From assembly GCF_000003605.2 (NCBI RefSeq), contig NW_003106600.1, positions 287,884-327,526 on the forward strand: a stretch of 39,643 nucleotides of DNA, given 5' to 3'. The position numbers were made by a program, and so were the translations under genes. Positions 8,335 to 33,445 of the stretch are shown here, in pieces. The DNA is from Saccoglossus kowalevskii. Its lineage: Eukaryota > Hemichordata > Enteropneusta > Harrimaniidae. A model generated the notes under the pieces. It was not told the DNA's origin, did no database searches, and worked only from the letters and a program-made list of their open reading frames with translations. Numbering within the stretch: position 1 is the stretch's first letter; every line of letters begins with the position of its first letter.

Positions 8335-11006
8335 GTAAGAATACTGTACAGCCTCTTGTCTTTTGCTGTTTTGTGTGGATGAAAATGAATTTACGAACAG
8401 AGTGCTGAACTGAGCATTTTTGGTATGTTACACAGAAGTGTTTACATTTGTTATTTGAATATTTGGTTACAGTCTATTTCAAGATGGTCTCCTTGTTGAG
8501 CACATTGCTTTAGGGAGATTCCTAAAACATGTTTACAACCTGCCCATTCCTTTTAAACAGTCATTACTTCTCCTGTGAATGGAGGTGATAAACAGCAACA
8601 TATTTACAGTTAATAAGCAAACAGAATTTATTCTAAGGGATAAACAAAGATTTGTTTGCGTCTATTTTTTTTATTATTCTGGAAAAAATTTTTGTTGAGA
8701 AAAATATTCTCACACAAATCTCAAACAAGTCAATTATTACAGTACCATAGTAAAAGCAGATAATTATATTTAAAACATAAATAACTCCATGCCTGTTGTC
8801 ACTCACAGTTGTCAAATTTGAAGCTATTTATAGCCCTAAATAGACTTGATTTCTTTGCAGTGTGTTGAACCAACCAGTGCCCATAGAGTGATCAACAACA
8901 TAAACTTTGTCTCCAAACTCACTATATAATTCATTTATTCAGTCTGTCTTTCATATCTCGTCTACTTATTAATCAGTGAAATAGTGTTTTAGAAAATCAC
9001 TATAATTCAATTCTGCATAATACAGTAGGCTCATTTGTACTCATCCACTTTGGTACGAGTTTAATATCCTGTTTGAAAATTGGTTTCATGTCAGGGGGCT
9101 CCACACCTCAACCTAGTTTAGTTGATTGTGTTCTTAGTTTCTACAGTGTATCTTACCTTGATTATCTGGTTTATATGTTCTGGACTAGATTTGAACAATA
9201 TGAATAACGCCTACCCGGTATTTGGATTAGGATCAGGTCATTTTGGAGCACTGGACCAATGCTGAACCAGTGCTGGGCTCGTACTGGACCAATGCTGAAC
9301 CAGTGCTGGGCTAGTACTGGACCAATGCTGAACCAGTGCTGGGCTAGTACTGGACCAATGCTGAACCAGTGCTGGGCTAGTGCTGGCCTAGTACTGGACC
9401 AATGCTGGGCTAGTGCTGGACCAGTACTGAACCAATCCTGGACCAATCCTGGACCAATGCTGAACCAGTGCTGGGCTAGTGCTGGGCTAGTGCTGGGCTA
9501 GTGCTGGGCTAGTGCTGGGCTAGTGCTGGGCTAGTGCGGGCCCAGTGCGGGCCCAGTGCTGGCCCAGTGCTGGCCCAGTGCTGGCCCAGTGCTGGCCCAG
9601 TGCTGGACTAGTGCGGGCCCAGTGCGGGGCCAATGCTGGCCCAGTGCGGGGCCAATGTGGGGACAATATTGGACATTGTCGGAAACTATTATGGACCATT
9701 ACTAAAAAATATGGCTGATCTCTATTTTAGATCAGTAACTTTGACTACAGCCATACTTAAACCTGTCAAAAACTATTGTGAACCATTTCTGCAATATTAT
9801 ATTGAATTTCCATTCCCGAGTAATAGCTAGGACAAAAAATTTACCAGGGTCAAAACAACTGAACCAATACTAGACACTGGAGTACAACTGTTAGGGCATG
9901 TACAGTTTAGTTATTTGCTGGGTTTTATTCTCACTTATTTTGCTGAAAACTAATGTGCTAAATTAAAGTCTAGTGATGAGAAAGAATTAACAACAGAATA
10001 TATTATTTCCTTCACAAATTTAAAATCTAGTACATATCCATGCAACATCAAATTAAATCCAGTGATGCCATAGTTGACTCCTACCGTATTTGCTTTATTA
10101 GTAGTGCATACACTTTAAGATGCTCTTGTAATAGAGTAAATATGGTATACAAAAAACAATCAACAAAAATTGAAACTGCCGTAAGTGGCGTTCATGTTAC
10201 TGGCACATGCGGAGAGTTGGGACTGAATTGGCATGTTCCGTAACAAGTACGTGAGCAGTCGTCACATGCCGAAAAAAACTTGATCTCTGCAAACATGAAG
10301 TATTAAAATTGTTGGCTTGTGCCGAGATCCTGTAATATAAACGTTGCTGTAAAGAACTGTTTATTGGTGATCTCTAGAAGTATGGAACAACCACCACCCC
10401 CTCCCTCTGGCACATAAGATCAACAGTACCACACATTGTAACCTGGCAACCTGAGTAACGGAAACTGTCTACTATTACCACATGTCAATAGTGATAACAG
10501 AAATATACTTCTTATCTGTAGAAAACATGTATATTTATTTGTGTATCCCTGTCTGCAGTTATATAACTTTAGTCAAAGAGTAATTTTATATGATGAAATC
10601 CTTCAGCTCACTGGTAGTAGTCTTTGAGATAATAAACAAATCTTGTTTTTAAATTAACCACTGTAATAGTTTTAGTGTTTGTTATCAGAAAACTTTACAG
10701 GAAATGGGTTTGTTTTACTAATGTGCTCAGCTAGCTGCATGACTGGAGATACTTTGAGAGGAATGAAATTCAGAGCTAAATGATGTAAATAAATGATGTT
10801 GCTCTTGAATACAGTTGTTTTGCATAACTTGACTATGCAAAAAAAACATCAGTCCCTAAAATTCCAGTTTATTCTGTAATTGATATTTTTTTCTTGACCG
10901 CGAAGTTGTACAGGGCAGTATGAGAAAAAACAGATTAATTTGACTGGAATTTAGTTTCACATTAATTTCTATTATTGATGAAAATTCTTTTTTTTTTTCT
11001 TTTCAG
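8335..11006 (+). other. Ank: Intron between ANK repeats 3 and 4
   Basis: A 2.7-kb intron bounded by GTAAGA and a long poly-T/TTTTCAG acceptor. Its main feature is the GC-rich minisatellite near 9247-9668. I see no other exon. Confidence 0.85.
9247..9668. repeat. Minisatellite, 11-bp units organised in 33-bp higher-order repeats
   Basis: The left part repeats a 33-bp block made of three related 11-mers (ACCAATGCTGA, ACCAGTGCTGG, GCTAGTACTGG). The middle is homogenised to GGGCTAGTGCT and the right part drifts to GGCCCAGTGCT and GGGCCAGTGCG variants. Because 33 is a multiple of three, long open frames appear on both strands, with Gln/Trp/Ser/Gly-rich products. These are artefacts of the repeat and not genes. 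Confidence 0.9.
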
Positions 11007-16889: not shown

Positions 16890-17470
16890 GTAAGTTGTAT
16901 AATTCACTACTCTCTCCCAGTCTTAAACCACTACCTTCTAGTTCACTCTTTTAGTCTTTTTTGCTATTTTATCTGGCCAGATGACTACCTCTTCCGCCAT
17001 ACAGAGCCCGACCCCCACCCACCACTGTCATCTATTTCCCCTGTACACTGCATTTTTTCTAACCAACTGCCTATAGTCCACGCCACACCATGTTTATTCT
17101 GTCTTGTGTTTCCCTATTGTCTTTCTACGTACTATCCATGGTGTGGAGAGTTCGCTCCGCTCCGGTCTGTCCGTTCCGGTCTGTCCGCTCCGGTCTGTCC
17201 GCTCCGGTCTGTCCGCTCCGGTCTGTCCGCTCCGGTCTGTCCGCTCCGGTCTGTCCGCTCCGGTCTGTCCGCTCCGGTCAGTCCACTCCGGTCAGTCCAC
17301 TCCGGTCAGTCCACTCCGGTCAGTCCACTCCGGTCAGTCCACTCCGGTCAGTCCACTCCGGTCAGTCCACTCCGGTCAGTCCGTTCTGGTCAATCCGTTC
17401 TGGTCAAGAGTGAAGAATGGAATGTTAATTTATTTTTTGTTGGAGCTTACCTCTAATTTTGTTTTTACAG
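16890..17470 (+). other. Ank: Intron between ANK repeats 13 and 14
   Basis: A 581-bp intron, nearly half of it a 14-bp minisatellite ending about 65 bp before the next exon. Confidence 0.85.
17153..17405. repeat. Minisatellite, 14-bp unit, about 18 copies
   Basis: The unit is TCCGCTCCGGTCTG in the left half and TCCACTCCGGTCAG in the right half, with decayed copies at both edges. Fourteen is not divisible by three, so the array reads open in all three forward frames as Ser/Pro/Val/Arg-rich peptides. This explains three overlapping spurious open frames. The GC-rich array contrasts with the AT-rich intron around it. Confidence 0.92.
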
Positions 17471-17767
17471 CGTGGTGAAACAGCCTTACATCTTGCCGCA
17501 AGAGCCAATCAAATTGATATCATTCGTATCTTATTACGCAATGGTGCCCAGGTAGATGCAAGAGCACGCGAGAACCAGACTCCACTGCATATTGCTTCCC
17601 GTCTGGGTAACGTGGAAATTGTCTTATTACTGTTGCAACACGGCGCATCACCTGATGCACAAACAAAGGATATGTACACAGCCCTGCATATTGCGGCCAA
17701 AGAAGGACAAGAAGATGTAGCATCTGTCCTACTAGAACACGGTGCATCGCTATCCACAACTACCAAG
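17471..17767 (+). CDS. Ank: Ankyrin exon: ANK repeats 14, 15 and 16
   Basis: A 297-nt phase-0 exon, exactly three 33-residue repeats: [20 protein letters not shown], then [20 protein letters not shown], then [20 protein letters not shown], ending LSTTTK before [24 protein letters not shown] and [11 protein letters not shown] are signatures of repeats 14-16. It is the longest exon of the ANK region, and the two antisense open frames over it are shadows. Confidence 0.97.
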
Positions 17768-18046
17768 GTGAGTTAGAATATCTGTGCATTCATGATTATC
17801 AAATAAAGCCCTGATTTTATTGGTTATTTTGTATTTTTGAATACTGCAGCAAAATTACTTTTCTAGTATAGTAAGTAAATACGTATTGGTATATGACATG
17901 TGTACAAATAGCTGTGAAATTAATTTAGGTTCCAGATGCTGTTTATATTTGCATATCATAAACATCGCTACATTTTACTCTTTGGTACCATAAATGTCAT
18001 CATGAAGCAATTATCAGAAATTTTTTTTTTTTTTCACGAATAACAG

Positions 18047-19710: not shown

Positions 19711-19908
19711 GCTGGCCTGACTCCACTCCATCAAGCTGCCCAGCAAGGTCATGTTGCCCTGATTAATCTGTTACTACAGTACGGTGCTGACCCCAATGAA
19801 GTCGCCAATAACGGATACACAGCATTGGCCATGGCTAAGCGTCTTGGCTACATCTCTGTTGTAAATACTCTGATAACCGTGACAACAGTTACTACGGTAA
19901 CTACACAG
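19711..19908 (+). CDS. Ank: Ankyrin exon: ANK repeats 23 and 24 plus Thr-rich tail
   Basis: A 198-nt phase-0 exon between TGTTTCGTAG and GTAAGT. It encodes [20 protein letters not shown], then [20 protein letters not shown], and ends in a valine-threonine tail ([11 protein letters not shown]). HQAAQQGH and AKRLGYISV identify the last two of the 24 repeats. A Thr-rich tail follows repeat 24 in vertebrate ankyrins too. The solenoid stops here. Confidence 0.97.
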
Positions 19909-20198: not shown

Positions 20199-20277
20199 AC
20201 TGATAAAGAAGAAAAACTCAAAGTCTTGGTTCCAGAAACCATGCAAGAAACATTCATATCAGACTCTGAAGATGAAG
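20199..20277 (+). CDS. Ank: Ankyrin exon: acidic linker after ANK repeats
   Basis: A 79-nt exon (phase 0 in, phase 1 out) between TCTTTGTACAG and GTAAGT. It encodes TDKEEKLKVLVPETMQETF and ISDSEDE. The VPETM-(T/Q)E motif followed by an acidic cluster occurs directly after repeat 24 in vertebrate ankyrins, supporting orthology of the linker. It is probably disordered. Confidence 0.93.
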
Positions 20278-22590: not shown

Positions 22591-22715
22591 GTGAAGATAC
22601 TATGACTGGTGACATGCCTACCTTAACAGTGGACGAAATGAAAAACATGGCTGATGACTCCATGCCTGTTTTACAGTCAATGACCATAGAGGAAGTATGG
22701 ATGAAAAGTGATCAG
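22591..22715 (+). CDS. Ank: Ankyrin exon: acidic linker, second part
   Basis: A 125-nt exon (phase 1 in, phase 0 out) between TAAATTTTTAG and GTAAAA. It encodes GEDTMTGDMPTLTVDEMKN, MADDSMP and then IEEVWMKSDQ. GEDTMTGD is a well-conserved ankyrin motif and the MADDSMP stretch parallels the LGDDSLP of vertebrates. The linker leads into the DG-repeat exon. Confidence 0.93.
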
Positions 22716-23135
22716 GTAAAACTTCTCAAAAAGATTCTTGAATATTTGATAGTGTATGATGTCATTTCTTTTTTACTGGTTGAGATTTATGTGACATACA
22801 GAAGACATGAAAGCAAACATTCATTCACAGGAACAACAATTTGATTATGTAGATGTTTGTTGCCTAGAAGATAGCAAACCCCCCAAAAAAGTTATTTTAT
22901 TTATGGAGATCTACTGATGAAAACAAGAGTTATGTGTGAACACCTTCTGTTCACACACAGGATAGATTTTCTATTAAAATGTATGTATTTTAGGAAAGGT
23001 GTCTTCTTGGGACTATCAAGATAGTAAAGGACAGAAACAAAATCAAGTTTCACATTCTGACACAGCATTCTGCCATCAGACTGGTTAATACTGCTTCTAT
23101 GCTACAAATCTTAACATATTTGTTTTCATTTTCAG
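22716..23135 (+). other. Ank: Intron before the DG-repeat exon
   Basis: A 420-bp intron. No repeats or additional exon are supported. Confidence 0.85.
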
Positions 23136-25006
23136 AGTCGTCTTACCAACTATGCTTACCCACCGTATGCAGGAGGTGAATCACCAAGTTCTTCAGCAAG
23201 AGGTTCCATGCCAGGTTATTACAGATCTGCTGCATACACCTCGTACTCCTCCAAGACTGGAAGTGTAGAACCAGAAGTTTTGAAAGCTGATAGGGCTGTG
23301 CAGCAGTCGGCTGCACCTGGCATGGCTGAGACTGATATGGTAACAAAGACGACTGAAGTTACCATCATAACGACCTGGAGGACCGTCATCCGTAATAAAG
23401 ATGGTGAAATAATGAGGAAACCTGATGGGAATGTCGCACATGTTGGTGATCCGTTCCAGGATGAAGATGGGAAAGAAGTTGCCGGTAAGGTGTATGGACC
23501 AGATGGTAAACCAATGGAATACACCATATATCTGCAAATGATTAAAGTTCATCGCATTATGATCCGAGATAATGATGGCCATCCAAAGAAGACTCCAGAT
23601 GGGCGACCGATGTATGCTGGTGATCCAGTTGTTGATGAAGAAGGACGTGTAATTGAAGGGATGGTTTATGGTCTTGAAGGCGAGTCTGTCACATATGAAG
23701 ATTACTTATCCACAGCTGCTGAAACTAGGGAACCAGTACTTGGAGATGATGGTGAGGAATTGAAAACCGCTGATGGTCGTCCAATTCGACCTGGAGATCC
23801 AGTTATTGATGAGGACGGTAAAGTGGTCAAGGATTTGGTCTATGGTCTGGATGGCAAACCAGTACAGTACACTATGTTTTATACAACAGTCATCGTCACA
23901 CGTCAGATCATAAGAGGTCCTGATGGTCTGCCAATGTATACAGCCGATGGAAGACCGATTGTTGCTGGTGATCCGGTTGTTGACGAAGATGGTGTGGTAC
24001 GACAAGATATGGTCTATAACTTAGAAGGTAAACCTGTACCTGTATACGAATACTATATAACTACAATTACAAGGTCGGTAATCAAAGGTCCCGATGGAGA
24101 ACCACTGAAAACCGCTGATGGTCGTAACGTACATCCAGGTGATCCTGTCGTTGATGAAGACGGCAAGCTGGTGAAAGGTATGGTGTACAATCGTGACGGC
24201 AAACCAGTCAAATATACTGAATACTTTATTACTATTACTGTTACAAGAAAAATAATTCTCGGACCCGATGGTAAGCCGCTGAAAACCGCAGACGGAAGAC
24301 CAATGTATCCTGGTGATCCAGTTGTTGAAAAAGATGGTACTGTTGTACAAGGAATGGTGTATGGGGAGGACGGAAAGCCACTTCCTTATGAAGAGTTCTA
24401 CTCCACTAATGCCAATGCAATATTAAGAACCCCTGTGATTGGCCAAGACGGGGAGCCAATGATCACTAAAGATGGTAGAGTTATGTACGCTGGTGATCCA
24501 GTCGTGGATGATAACGGTAAAGTTTTGCATGGACTTGTGTATGGCTATGACGGTAGACCAGTTCCTTATAGCGAGTTCTACACGCACTCTACTCGAACTA
24601 CAACAACTACAACGACTACCACAAGTACAGTAACAAGAGTATCCGTGAAAGATAAAGACGGTTATCCGATGAAAACTCCAAAAGGTCAATTTATTTATGC
24701 CGGTGACCCCTACATGGATGAAGATGGGACTTATATTCCTGGGATGGTCTACGGCCACTACGGCCAACCGGTGACGTACAGCACCTTTTACTCTGAAACC
24801 ACAACCACCAAAATCTCTGTCGAACCTGTAATCGGGCCCGATGGAAAACCAATGAGACGACCTGATGGTAAAATCATCTATGTCGGTGATGCTGTTGTTA
24901 ATGAAAAGGGTCAGGTAATACCAGGAATGATTTACGGACCAGACGGTAAACCAGTTCCGTTTGTACAAGATAATGTTGCACCCATATCCATTCCAGTACA
25001 TGCTGG
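23136..25006 (+). CDS. Ank: Ankyrin exon: nine-copy Asp-Gly-rich repeat domain inserted before ZU5
   Basis: A 1871-nt exon (phase 0 in, phase 2 out) between TTTTCATTTTCAG and GTAAGT. The acceptor fixes the start: the frame opens SRLTNYAYPPYAGGESPSSS upstream of the first Met at 23208. About 80 residues of Ser/Thr-rich linker are followed by nine tandem modules, then a short tail ending PVHAG, which joins FLISFM of ZU5 just as xIHSG|FLVSFM does in vertebrates. Each ~58-residue module carries, in order, xxDGxP, K(T/P)xDGRPMY, (P/A)GDPVVDEDGxV, GMVYGxDGKPV and YxxFY. I do not recognise this domain. Repeated DG turns suggest short beta-hairpins. The DEDG clusters could bind cations, but that is speculation. 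The antisense open frames here are shadows. Confidence 0.95.
23370..24965 (+). repeat. Nine coding tandem repeats of about 58 residues (174 nt)
   Basis: Using the invariant Gly-Asp of the GDP motif as marker, copies recur at residues 80, 138, 196, 254, 311, 369, 429, 499 and 560 counted from the Met at 23208. That gives spacings of 58, 58, 58, 57, 58, 60, 70 and 61. Approximate unit starts are 23370, 23538, 23712, 23886, 24060, 24231, 24405, 24585 and 24795. Unit 8 is lengthened by a run of nine threonines written in mixed ACA/ACT/ACG/ACC codons. Unit 9 has GDA for GDP. Nucleotide identity between units is mostly low while the protein pattern is kept, so the array is old and constrained. Confidence 0.95.
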
Positions 25007-25671
25007 GTAAGTTGATATTGCATCGTTGTTATTTTTATTTTCAAAACGTGTAAATTGTATACAAGTGTGATGACGATGATTATACAACAACACCTTAGAA
25101 ATAAATGAGCATCAAAATCTCATTGAGAGCAAGTGAAAGAGCCATCAATGTAACCATTGTATTTGACCAGTAGAGCGTGTATCGTCTTGGATGAATGATG
25201 TTTAATTTGCCTGAAATAAAAAATTCACTTATGTAAATGAGAGGCATGTCTATTATCAAACTGTCATATTATAGTGTACAACAAATTACAACGTAGTTTA
25301 TTAGAGATATGATTCTCATGACGTAAATATGGCGTATTATAAATATGACATACTTTGTTTATTTGGTGAGACCAGTTTATAACATAACCGAAGATTTTCA
25401 TGAACACAAAAAACATACAAAATAGTCATTTTTATTGCAATATAGCGATTAATTATTAAAATATTACTTATGTTGGCCATAAAAAAAATGTCTAATTTAC
25501 CTAGTTAAGTGCATTGGCTACTTGTAGAGGTATATACCTTGCGAATCTAGTAAAACGTAACAAAGTAATTGTATGTATTTTCGTACGGATTTTCACTATT
25601 TATCTTGAAATTAAGAACAAATAAAATATTGTACTTGAATAATTCTCACTGTGATTTTTTTCCCTCGACAG
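25007..25671 (+). other. Ank: Intron between the DG-repeat exon and ZU5
   Basis: A 665-bp AT-rich intron; nothing else is visible. Confidence 0.85.
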
Positions 25672-25896
25672 ATTCCTTATCAGTTTTATGGTAGATGCTC
25701 GTGGTGGAGCCATGCGTGGTTGCCGTCTTCCTGGGCTTCGTATTATCGTTCCACCAGGGAAGGCGACCGGGCCAACTCGCATCACCTGCCGCATGATAAA
25801 GAGAATGAAACTAGTTAACCCACCCCCATTGATGGAAGGTGAAGCCCTCGCCAGTCGTGTACTGGAAGTTGGACCTTCTGGTGCTCAATTCCTCGG
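25672..25896 (+). CDS. Ank: Ankyrin exon: start of ZU5-N domain (spectrin binding)
   Basis: A 225-nt exon (phase 2 in, phase 2 out) between TCCCTCGACAG and GTAAGT. It encodes [18 protein letters not shown], then [15 protein letters not shown], and ends [22 protein letters not shown]. The Asp-Ala-Arg of FMVDARGG is the motif known in vertebrate ankyrins to be needed for beta-spectrin binding, and it is intact. Conservation is very high. Its last 25 residues resemble the optional exon at 27753. Confidence 0.97.
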
Positions 25897-26009
25897 GTAA
25901 GTTGAACAGGGGTTCGTCTGTTATAACATTGTTAGAAAAAAATATATATAACCCATTCCCTGATTGGCTAATAAGAGTAATGATATCTGTAATCCATATG
26001 TGTGGCAAT

Positions 26010-27191: not shown

Positions 27192-27443
27192 CACCCCCAC
27201 AATTTAATCCTGTACTGGTAGTTTTTGTTATCCCACACAAAAGTAATAAATCTGTTTCCTACTCTGTGGTGCTTGTTGATTCTTGATTTTTNNNNNNNNN
27301 NNNNNNNNNNNNNNNNNNNNNNNNNNNNNNNNNNNNNNNNNCACCCCCACAATTTAATCCTGTACTGGTAGTTTTTGTTATCCCACACAAAAGTAATAAA
27401 TCTGTTTCCTACTCTGTGGTGCTTGTTGAATTCTTGAATTTTT
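27192..27443. other. Scaffold gap (50 N at 27292-27341) with duplicated flanks
   Basis: The ~100 bp before the N run (27192-27291) and the ~100 bp after it (27342-27443) are almost identical. Both begin CACCCCCACAATTTAATCC, and the second copy carries one extra base in two places near its end. This pattern is typical of two contig ends that overlap but were not merged, so the gap is probably artificial and the true intron about 150 bp shorter. A real tandem duplication is the alternative. Confidence 0.8.
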
Positions 27444-30090: not shown

Positions 30091-30845
30091 GTAAGTAAAT
30101 CACATGTTACATACTAGCCAGTCACATGGTACACACTAGCCAGTCACATGGTACAAACTAGCCAGTCACATGGTACAAACTAACCAGTCACATGGTGCAC
30201 ACTAGTCAGTCACATGGTGCACACTAGTCAGTCACATGGTACATACTAGCCAGTCACATGGTACACACTAGCCAGTCACATGGTACAAACTAGCCAGTCA
30301 CATGGTACAAACTAGCCAGTCACATGGTACACACTAGCCAGTCACATGGTACATACTAGCCAGTCACATGGTACATACTAGCCAGTCACATGGTACATAC
30401 TAGCCAGTCACATGGTACACACTAGCCAGTCACATGGTACACACTAGCCAGTCACAGGGTACACACTAGCCAGTCACAGGGTACACACTAGCCAGTCACA
30501 GGGTACACACTAGCCAGTCACAGGGTACACACTAGCCAGTCACAGGGTACACACTAGCCAGTCACAGGGTACACACTGGCCAGTCACAGGGTACACACTG
30601 GCCAGTCACAGGGTACACACTGGCCAGTCACAGGGTACACACTGGCCAGTCACATGGTGCACACTGGCCAGTCACATGGTGCACACTGGCCAGTCACATG
30701 GTGCACACTGGCCAGTCACATGGTGCACACTGGCCAGTCACATGGTGCACACTGGCCAGTCACATGGTGCACACTGGCCAGTCACATGAGAGATGTGAGC
30801 ACGATGCATAACTTCTAATGGTGTCTTCAATATTCTCATTTATAG
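30091..30845 (+). other. Ank: Intron almost filled by a 22-bp minisatellite
   Basis: A 755-bp intron, about 90 percent of which is the minisatellite described separately. Only the donor region and the last ~55 bp are unique. Confidence 0.9.
30105..30788. repeat. Minisatellite, 22-bp unit, about 31 copies
   Basis: The unit is CAGTCACATGGTACACACTA followed by GC. Variants are arranged in blocks: CATGGTACAAACTAGC copies on the left, CAGGGTACACACTAGC then ...CTGGC in the middle, and CATGGTGCACACTGGC on the right. The block structure indicates successive local amplifications. Confidence 0.95.
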
Positions 30846-32500: not shown

Positions 32501-32729
32501 GTTTTGGCTCATGGATTGTCGAGAGATAAATCAAGCCAGTAACTTTGCTAGAGAGCTATATCATGAAGTGACAGCGGTGCCGTTCATGGCAAAATTTGTC
32601 GTGTTCGGAAAGACACATGACCCGATTGAAGCCCGAATTCGAGTGTTCTGTATGACTGATGATAAGATGGATAAAACATTAGAAAGTCAAGAACATTTCA
32701 CTGAAATAGCTCGTAGTAGGGATGTGGAG
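32501..32729 (+). CDS. Ank: Ankyrin exon: UPA domain, first part
   Basis: A 229-nt exon (phase 2 in, phase 0 out) between TTCTGCTTCAG and GTAAGA. It encodes [20 protein letters not shown], then [34 protein letters not shown] and ARSRDVE. UPA (shared with UNC5 and PIDD) packs against the ZU5 pair; FWL-DCR, MAKFVVF and CMTDDK-DKTLE are conserved. Confidence 0.97.
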
Positions 32730-33193
32730 GTAAGACTTTTAATTTCTGTACGTTCGTTTTAACAAGATTCATTCTTCCTAAAATGACATTGCCGATTATT
32801 CCTTTCAAAGTTTTGTCTGAAATGGGGACTTGAATGTTGGTGTGTGCGTGTACGCCCGTTCAATGTCATTTCTCAGAATGCCTAGATCAACTTAAAGTCA
32901 CGTCATGATGATAGTTTAGTTTATTTTATTTTATTTATGATAGTTTATTGAAACTTTTCATCAATCATTCAATCAAACTTTTGACGTATTGACATCTCTT
33001 ATGGTGGGTTAAATAATTTTTATCTCTAACTAGAATTTTTTTCGCTTGGCTCATTTTGTTATTTCTTTGAATATTTTTTTAAAATTTGCCATTCTTTAGA
33101 AGCCTTCAGTGTAATTAATTTATCATTATTAATTCATGTACATATATACATTTGAGGACACTGTTTTCACCTATGCTTTCCTATACCCTCAAG
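32730..33193 (+). other. Ank: Intron within UPA
   Basis: A 464-bp T-rich intron. Nothing else is visible. The acceptor (TTTCCTATACCCTCAAG) is a less usual AAG but is fixed by the reading frame. Confidence 0.85.
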
Positions 33194-33445
33194 GTTTTAG
33201 ATGGCCGACCACAATACCTAGAACTTGCTGGTAATTTAGTGCCAGTACAAAAATCTGGAGAACAGCTTCATCTCAATTTCCACGCCTTCCATGAAAACCG
33301 CCTGCCATTCTTCACCCGTGTGCGCGACCAGGGACAGGAGCCTTGTGGTAGACTATCGTTTATGCGGGAGCCAAAAGTTGGCCGTGGATTACCTCCGCAG
33401 AAAGCCATCTGCAATTTGAATATAACTATTCCTGAGTATGTTAAG
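33194..33445 (+). CDS. Ank: Ankyrin exon: UPA domain, second part
   Basis: A 252-nt phase-0 exon ending at GTAAGG. It encodes [20 protein letters not shown], then [39 protein letters not shown] and [12 protein letters not shown]. The VLxGKPxY start, GNLVPxxKSG, ENRLPF and CNLNITxP are conserved UPA motifs. The Met codon at 33152 in an upstream frame is intronic. This is the last exon with clear family homology in the window. Confidence 0.97.

Follow-up and report, generated by a model that had tools for sequence, protein, structure and literature searches.

Vertebrate ankyrins carry a linker between the solenoid of ANK repeats and the first ZU5 domain, which is given as residues 848 to 960 in AnkB and 874 to 984 in AnkG (PMC3663501) and is described as disordered in both proteins (PMC5779224). 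The autoinhibitory segments lie in the first part of this linker (PMC3663501, PMC5779224), and one of those in AnkB has been named AI-c (PMC5779224). Another source of extra length is the giant exon, which has a mean size of 8103 ± 4850 bp and encodes sequences in which S, E, T, D, K, and P account for more than 55% and S plus E for about 25% of the residues; the repeats encoded by the giant exon of fly ankyrin have been postulated to serve as a spacer (PMC5135030). According to the same source, giant exons precede the death domain in vertebrates and follow it in protostomes and echinoderms. An earlier, sequence-only reading of the DNA described here had placed them simply after UPA, which is correct but needs the side of the death domain to be specified, as this depends on the lineage.

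In the acorn worm Saccoglossus kowalevskii, an ankyrin gene contains a single long exon that encodes nine tandem Asp-Gly-rich modules, located in the linker between the ANK repeats and ZU5. The features of this locus (Table 1) are numbered by their positions in the window, the whole stretch of 39,643 nucleotides that was analyzed, which is part of contig C133. The vertebrate ANK1, ANK2, and ANK3 linkers occupy the same place and share with the acorn worm protein the AI-c/EDTMTGD segment on one side and the pre-ZU5 segment on the other. However, the linker of AnkB and AnkG is disordered and consists of about 110 to 140 residues (PMC3663501, PMC5779224), whereas that of the acorn worm has about 690 residues and includes nine modules. 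The contrast drawn at the outset with a short vertebrate linker is therefore borne out: the array is far longer than the AnkB and AnkG segments delimited in PMC3663501.

Table 1. Features of the ankyrin locus (window positions)
Feature	Position	Strand	Details
Last ANK-repeat exon	19711..19908	+	Open frame, acceptor, donor GTAAGT; ends in phase 0
Linker exon TDKEEKLKVLVPETMQETFISDSEDEG, match to AnkB AI-c	20199..20277	+	1 spare base at end
Linker exon EDTMTGDMPTLTVDEMKNMADDSMPVLQSMTIEEVWMKSDQ	22591..22715	+	Starts with 2 codon bases, ends in phase 0
Array exon	23136..25006	+	1871 nt; 623 full codons, with 2 bases left over at 3' end
N-terminal part of array exon	23136..23372	+	79 aa, Ser/Ala/Thr/Tyr-rich (composition), no repeats
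Nine tandem modules	23373..24989	+	539 aa as cut
Pre-ZU5 segment DNVAPISIPVHA and first 2 bases of Gly	24969..25006	+	Alignment to Ankyrin-2, -3, and -1
First ZU5 exon, ending in QFLG	25672..25897	+	Starts with third base of a codon
UPA domain, two matches	32577..33436 (32577-32732, 33185-33436)	+	PF17809

The assignment of the array exon relies on its neighbors. Upstream, the window region 17474-17773 has its best match in an Ankyrin-1/Ankyrin-2 chain (E = 2.6e-156), and the last ANK-repeat exon shows homology to the last part of the ANK repeats of AnkB (PDB 5y4f). The first linker exon aligns with PDB entries 5y4f and 1n11, and the N-terminal half of the second one aligns with AnkB; together, they match AnkB across EDTMTGD and as far as the solved fragment extends (5y4f, E = 3.9e-21). 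The boundaries of the last ANK-repeat exon and of the first linker exon were read by hand. Downstream, the end of the array exon, DNVAPISIPVHAG, runs in frame into ZU5 in the same way as DNVALSSSPIHSG, DNVNLVSSPVHSG, and DNISPVASPVHTG in the human Ankyrin-2, Ankyrin-3, and Ankyrin-1 chains, respectively, and the pre-ZU5 segment joined to ZU5 matches these three chains with E-values of 4.8e-39, 6.7e-38, and 3.8e-33. Of the ZU5 domains, the first (PF00791) was located, at C133:313565-313786, its match overrunning the end of the exon into a stop, and PF17809 is found at G000:C133:320460-320615 and 321068-321319. Based on its continuity with the pre-ZU5 segment and ZU5 downstream and with an AnkB-type linker upstream, the array exon is assigned to the coding sequence of a canonical ankyrin. 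These alignments, in frame on both sides, support the initial proposal of an ankyrin with a repeat domain that sits between its ANK solenoid and ZU5.

In the genome, UPA_2 matches are found at the array locus only (2 matches from 3 candidates scored). One canonical ankyrin is thus seen, and a divergent second copy may have escaped the search. There are at least 32 ZU5 matches genome-wide, mostly off the ankyrin contig, and at least 55 matches to the Death domain (PF00531), with none of these 55 in the covered part of C133; the death domain of ankyrins is reported to be hard to identify (PMC5135030). A run of 50 N at window positions 27292-27341, probably an assembly gap, lies past the first ZU5 exon and ahead of UPA.

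The array exon is bounded by an acceptor (TTTTCAG) and a donor (GTAAGT) and lies within an open frame of 631 residues (23115-25010). Counted at the exon ends, the spare bases number 0 (19908), 1 (20277), 0 (22715), and 2 (25006), so that the junctions 22715|23136 and 25006|25672 of the sequence-only reading agree with the exon phases. The ZU5 exon at 25672 requires two bases, and among the four exons checked, the array exon alone supplies them; its omission, whether by itself or together with its two neighbors, results in a frameshift. Since it is the only one of the four that joins ZU5 in frame, its inclusion is probably constitutive, as judged from the phases. That the array exon belongs to a separate gene or is an unused frame outside the ankyrin mRNA is barely conceivable: the conserved pre-ZU5 segment is encoded, in frame, by this very exon, and if the exon is left out, the reading frame of ZU5 cannot be reached from any of the three exons checked upstream.

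Like the array exon, the giant exons of AnkG and AnkB, fly Ank2 L/XL, and worm unc-44 are long single exons of an ankyrin gene, with repeats in a subset of them. However, giant exons are located after UPA and are rich in S, E, T, D, K, and P, whereas the array exon is located before ZU5, spans only 1871 nt, and is rich in G, V, D, and P. The six residues typical of giant exons make up 42.3% of the array, with S plus E at 8.0%. Furthermore, giant exons are optional in vertebrates, whereas the array exon probably is not. Place, length, and composition therefore rule out that the array is the long exon of a giant ankyrin. Two overlapping frames on the plus strand, C133:358937-360970 and 360948-361766 (678 and 273 aa), are found about 31 kb past the end of the window. 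They contain internal repeats, with 58.6% and 57.1% of S, E, T, D, K, and P and 30.1% and 31.5% of S plus E, respectively. By composition, these frames may represent a conventional giant exon of the same ankyrin.

The modules start at positions 23373, 23547, 23721, 23895, 24066, 24240, 24420, 24630, and 24813 and are 58, 58, 58, 57, 58, 60, 70, 61, and 59 residues long, in that order. The last recognizable residues of the module, KPVPF, end at 24962, and, with the unit boundaries used here, unit 9 overlaps the pre-ZU5 segment with its tail. The consensus is xTRxxIxGxDGxPMKTxDGRxxYxGDPVVDEDGxVxxGMVYGxDGKPVxYxxxYxT, with a mean column identity of 63% and eight columns (D10, G11, G19, G25, D26, G33, Y41, and G45) that are invariant in all nine units. 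Five of these are Gly, so the suggestion of five glycine turns per module is right at the level of sequence. In held-out searches with trimmed units, in which each unit was scored by a hidden Markov model of the other eight, all nine obtain 65.1 to 100.6 bits, whereas the best of 1,000 shuffles per unit reach 7.6 to 14.1 bits, and none attains the score of the real unit. Held-out units score so far above shuffles that the nine-unit array is not due to chance. Unit cutting and the held-out searches thus confirm nine regular modules of 57 to 61 residues (8 of the 9 units). A single 70-residue unit exists, as had been noted, although it is unit 7 in the present cut and was counted as unit 8 in another phase; its additional residues lie in the Thr run between modules.

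At the DNA level, the repeats are strongly diverged. With 50 codons of each unit aligned, the mean pS between units is 0.72, near saturation, and the mean pN is 0.34; pS is the larger of the two in all 36 pairs, which are not independent but agree in direction. Identity between units is 38% at third, 61% at first, and 73% at second codon positions. Units 3 to 6 are the most alike (58 to 66% amino acid identity), whereas units 1 and 9 share 40% to 52% with the others. The saturation of pS, together with its excess over pN in all pairs, shows that the array is old and that its protein sequence is kept by purifying selection; saturated synonymous sites also rule out a recent tandem duplication of units. 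Tandem Repeats Finder reports no row inside the array, as expected with such saturation. Elsewhere in the window, outside the described exons, tandem arrays are present at 17156-17406 (14 bp), 9251-9654 (11/33 bp), and 30100-30788 (22 bp), the first of them within three overlapping long frames beside an ANK exon.

The module is undescribed as far as Pfam, NCBIfam, and PDB were searched. Pfam searches with the array exon return six families at E-values up to 10, none over its curated cut-off; the best are DOCK-C2 (E = 8.8e-5, 22.9 of the 33.6 bits required) and YkoP (E = 2.1e-4, 21 of 27 bits). The nine single units likewise hit six families, one member each, with a best E-value of 0.035 and none over the cut-off. 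NCBIfam contains no family for the array, and the best match among PDB sequences (E = 0.5) is not convincing. The 23 PDB profile matches at E-values up to 5 were rejected as resemblances over 22 to 24 residues only, the best one (E = 0.0029) being to 22 residues of a ribosomal protein, followed by EZH2 chains from 0.017. Six PHROGs families were dismissed because the likeness is short; the best E-value, 5.8e-4, is obtained twice, for an internal virion protein and for a family of unknown function, over 39 and 28 residues. For the N-terminal part of the exon together with the preceding exon, PDB yields a single unrelated match (E = 0.34). In these libraries, the module is indeed unlike any named repeat family, as had been supposed. 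Among the open-licence PMC papers listed, no title or abstract opening mentions a repeat array between ANK and ZU5. In PMC5135030, linkers are described as trimmed before phylogenetic analysis, so such an array could sit unremarked in public gene models. Cation coordination by the DEDG clusters, also suggested initially, is not supported: the EF-hand, DxDxDG, TSP3-like, and RTX patterns, which are blind to other kinds of metal site, match nowhere in the 623-residue exon product. DxDG occurs seven times in it.

The array is found once in the 572-Mb genome of 4830 contigs (1 match from 3 candidates with the whole array as the query). A two-unit query retrieves five pieces of the same array and two matches on contig C1491 with E-values of 6.77 and 7.55; both queries give a single locus, and no wider family was found in this genome. 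The C1491 sequence (G000:C1491, L029:1186-3093, minus strand) is a 636-residue open frame with proline-rich stretches. It has many xDGRPI turns, like the ankyrin array, but in a rhythm of 8, 16, and 24 residues, and its only Pfam match is a sub-cut-off one of the FlgE D1 type (E = 0.0012).

Outside this genome, Asp-Gly-rich repeats that resemble the module are encoded by bacterial plasmids. In tblastn searches, 7 of 72,556 plasmid records match the array with 23 to 28% identity (best E = 3e-8, at 23.1%). One of their products is named TrbI/VirB10 and the others are hypothetical; two were inspected, WP_045861752.1 from Teredinibacter (TrbI/VirB10 family) and WP_015068613.1 from Alteromonas (hypothetical). 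The Teredinibacter repeats share DGxxxxTxDGRxxY...VDExG with the module over about 30 residues, and hhalign aligns 30 of the 58 columns with a probability of 93.3% and a score of 34.1, which none of 100 column shuffles attains (mean 9.5, highest 15.3). The Teredinibacter profile comprises eight units cut by eye, and the pair was picked as the best match. Such scores could point to true homology with TrbI/VirB10-type repeats, for example, by transfer. However, repeat E-values are inflated, and the match covers only half of the module: the bacterial arrays belong to plasmid proteins, have another period and other spacers, and lack the GMVYGxDGKPV half. The bacterial pieces also pass the Pfam cut-offs of families as unlike as FlgE D1, FliC, DUF3659, and CopK, none of which appears for the acorn worm array, indicating that these repeats are unspecific. 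Short turn-rich repeats readily converge, as seen in the C1491 array and in the GPDGKP linker of a viral contig. Homology is thus quite unlikely, and the likeness probably reflects shared turn chemistry. None of 50,697 phage records matches the array. With units 4 to 6 as the query, a collection of genome contigs gives 35 pattern matches and no relatives; among 114 stretches of viral contigs retrieved with units 6 and 7, one is a relative, the low-complexity GPDGKP linker just mentioned. A bacterial or viral origin of the array was set aside on these results.

In a crude Chou-Fasman prediction, strand and turn alternate along most of the module; three residues at the MKT position form a helical patch, and two further columns are helical singly. 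The array contains no cysteine, and G, V, D, P, and T are abundant in it. Invariant D-G and Gly residues with strand-like stretches between them favor a hairpin fold, and the rod of small β-hairpins proposed at first is plausible. We infer, with about even confidence for fold, inclusion, and role taken together, that the array is a modular spacer of folded hairpin modules in an always-included ankyrin exon. Each module would fold as a small set of β-hairpins closed by Asp-Gly turns, and the Thr-rich linkers of variable length that join the modules might serve as hinges, as suggested by the location of the sole length outlier, the 70-residue unit, in one of them. With the exon, the linker reaches about 690 residues, compared with about 138 in AnkB (828-965). 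Both the pre-ZU5 segment and the part adjacent to the ANK repeats, which has an autoinhibitory role in AnkB, are kept, with the nine modules in between. The array would then determine how far the membrane-bound ANK solenoid lies from the spectrin-bound ZU5-ZU5-UPA unit. Conservation of the autoinhibitory first part of the linker, with the array in the second part, makes a spacer the simplest reading.

A loose or disordered Gly/Asp-rich spacer, an analogue in the linker of the giant-exon repeats, is unlikely. Vertebrate linkers at the same place are described as disordered (PMC5779224), and the array, rich in G, V, D, P, and T, is near the disorder boundary in hydropathy (0.440, with the boundary at 0.429). 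However, this measure does not discriminate, as the linker-like N-terminal flank (0.443 against 0.413) exceeds its own boundary by more than the array does. The strict unit length, the invariant Gly, Asp, and Tyr residues, the content of Val (11.3%) and Tyr (6.9%), and purifying selection all argue against disorder, as does a composition remote from that reported for giant exons (PMC5135030). Folding of the modules back over the ANK groove, as an extension of autoinhibition, is most unlikely. AI-c and AI-b bind the ANK repeats in AnkB and AnkG (PMC3663501, PMC5779224), and AI-c is conserved in the acorn worm, but the array lies downstream of these segments, and the known groove binders are disordered peptides rather than repeated modules.

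The main rival to a spacer of folded modules is a multivalent docking array, in which each module would bind one copy of a partner, providing nine sites next to the membrane. Conservation goes beyond the turns, with VY at columns 40 and 41, TxDGR, YxGDPVVDE, and eight invariant columns, and a pure spacer would permit more change than purifying selection has allowed. Such strong column conservation fits a binding surface equally well, as a spacer needs no strict sequence. Nevertheless, the conserved residues could serve folding alone, and no binding family scores over its cut-off; docking therefore appears possible but somewhat unlikely.

Vertebrate ankyrin is lengthened by optional exons behind UPA, whereas the array lengthens the acorn worm protein before ZU5. 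Only one canonical ankyrin is seen in this deuterostome, and an obligatory array would alter its ANK-ZU5 spacing in every context of use. It would also offer a natural experiment on the importance of linker length; a new fold would add one more repeat family. That the modules form a new folded family, that a nine-module strut is a constant part of the hemichordate ankyrin, and that this is a second, independent lengthening of ankyrin, here in the core protein, is a tentative proposal to which we give slightly less than even weight.

The same assembly includes a mitochondrial contig (C4830), recognized by a Pfam match to COX1; the names of its other genes are our own assignments. On this contig, COX1 has an inverted orientation, and ND2 lies ahead of ND1. 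Five AGA codons are read as Ser, none of the 11 gene frames counted contains AGG, and ATA and AAA are found at sites that we take to be those of Ile and Lys, respectively. The code and the gene order are most likely of the Saccoglossus type: for the S. kowalevskii mitochondrion, AUA is reported to encode Ile, AAA Lys, and AGA Ser, with AGG left without assignment, along with an inversion of COX1 and a transposition of ND1 or ND2 (PMC3121625).
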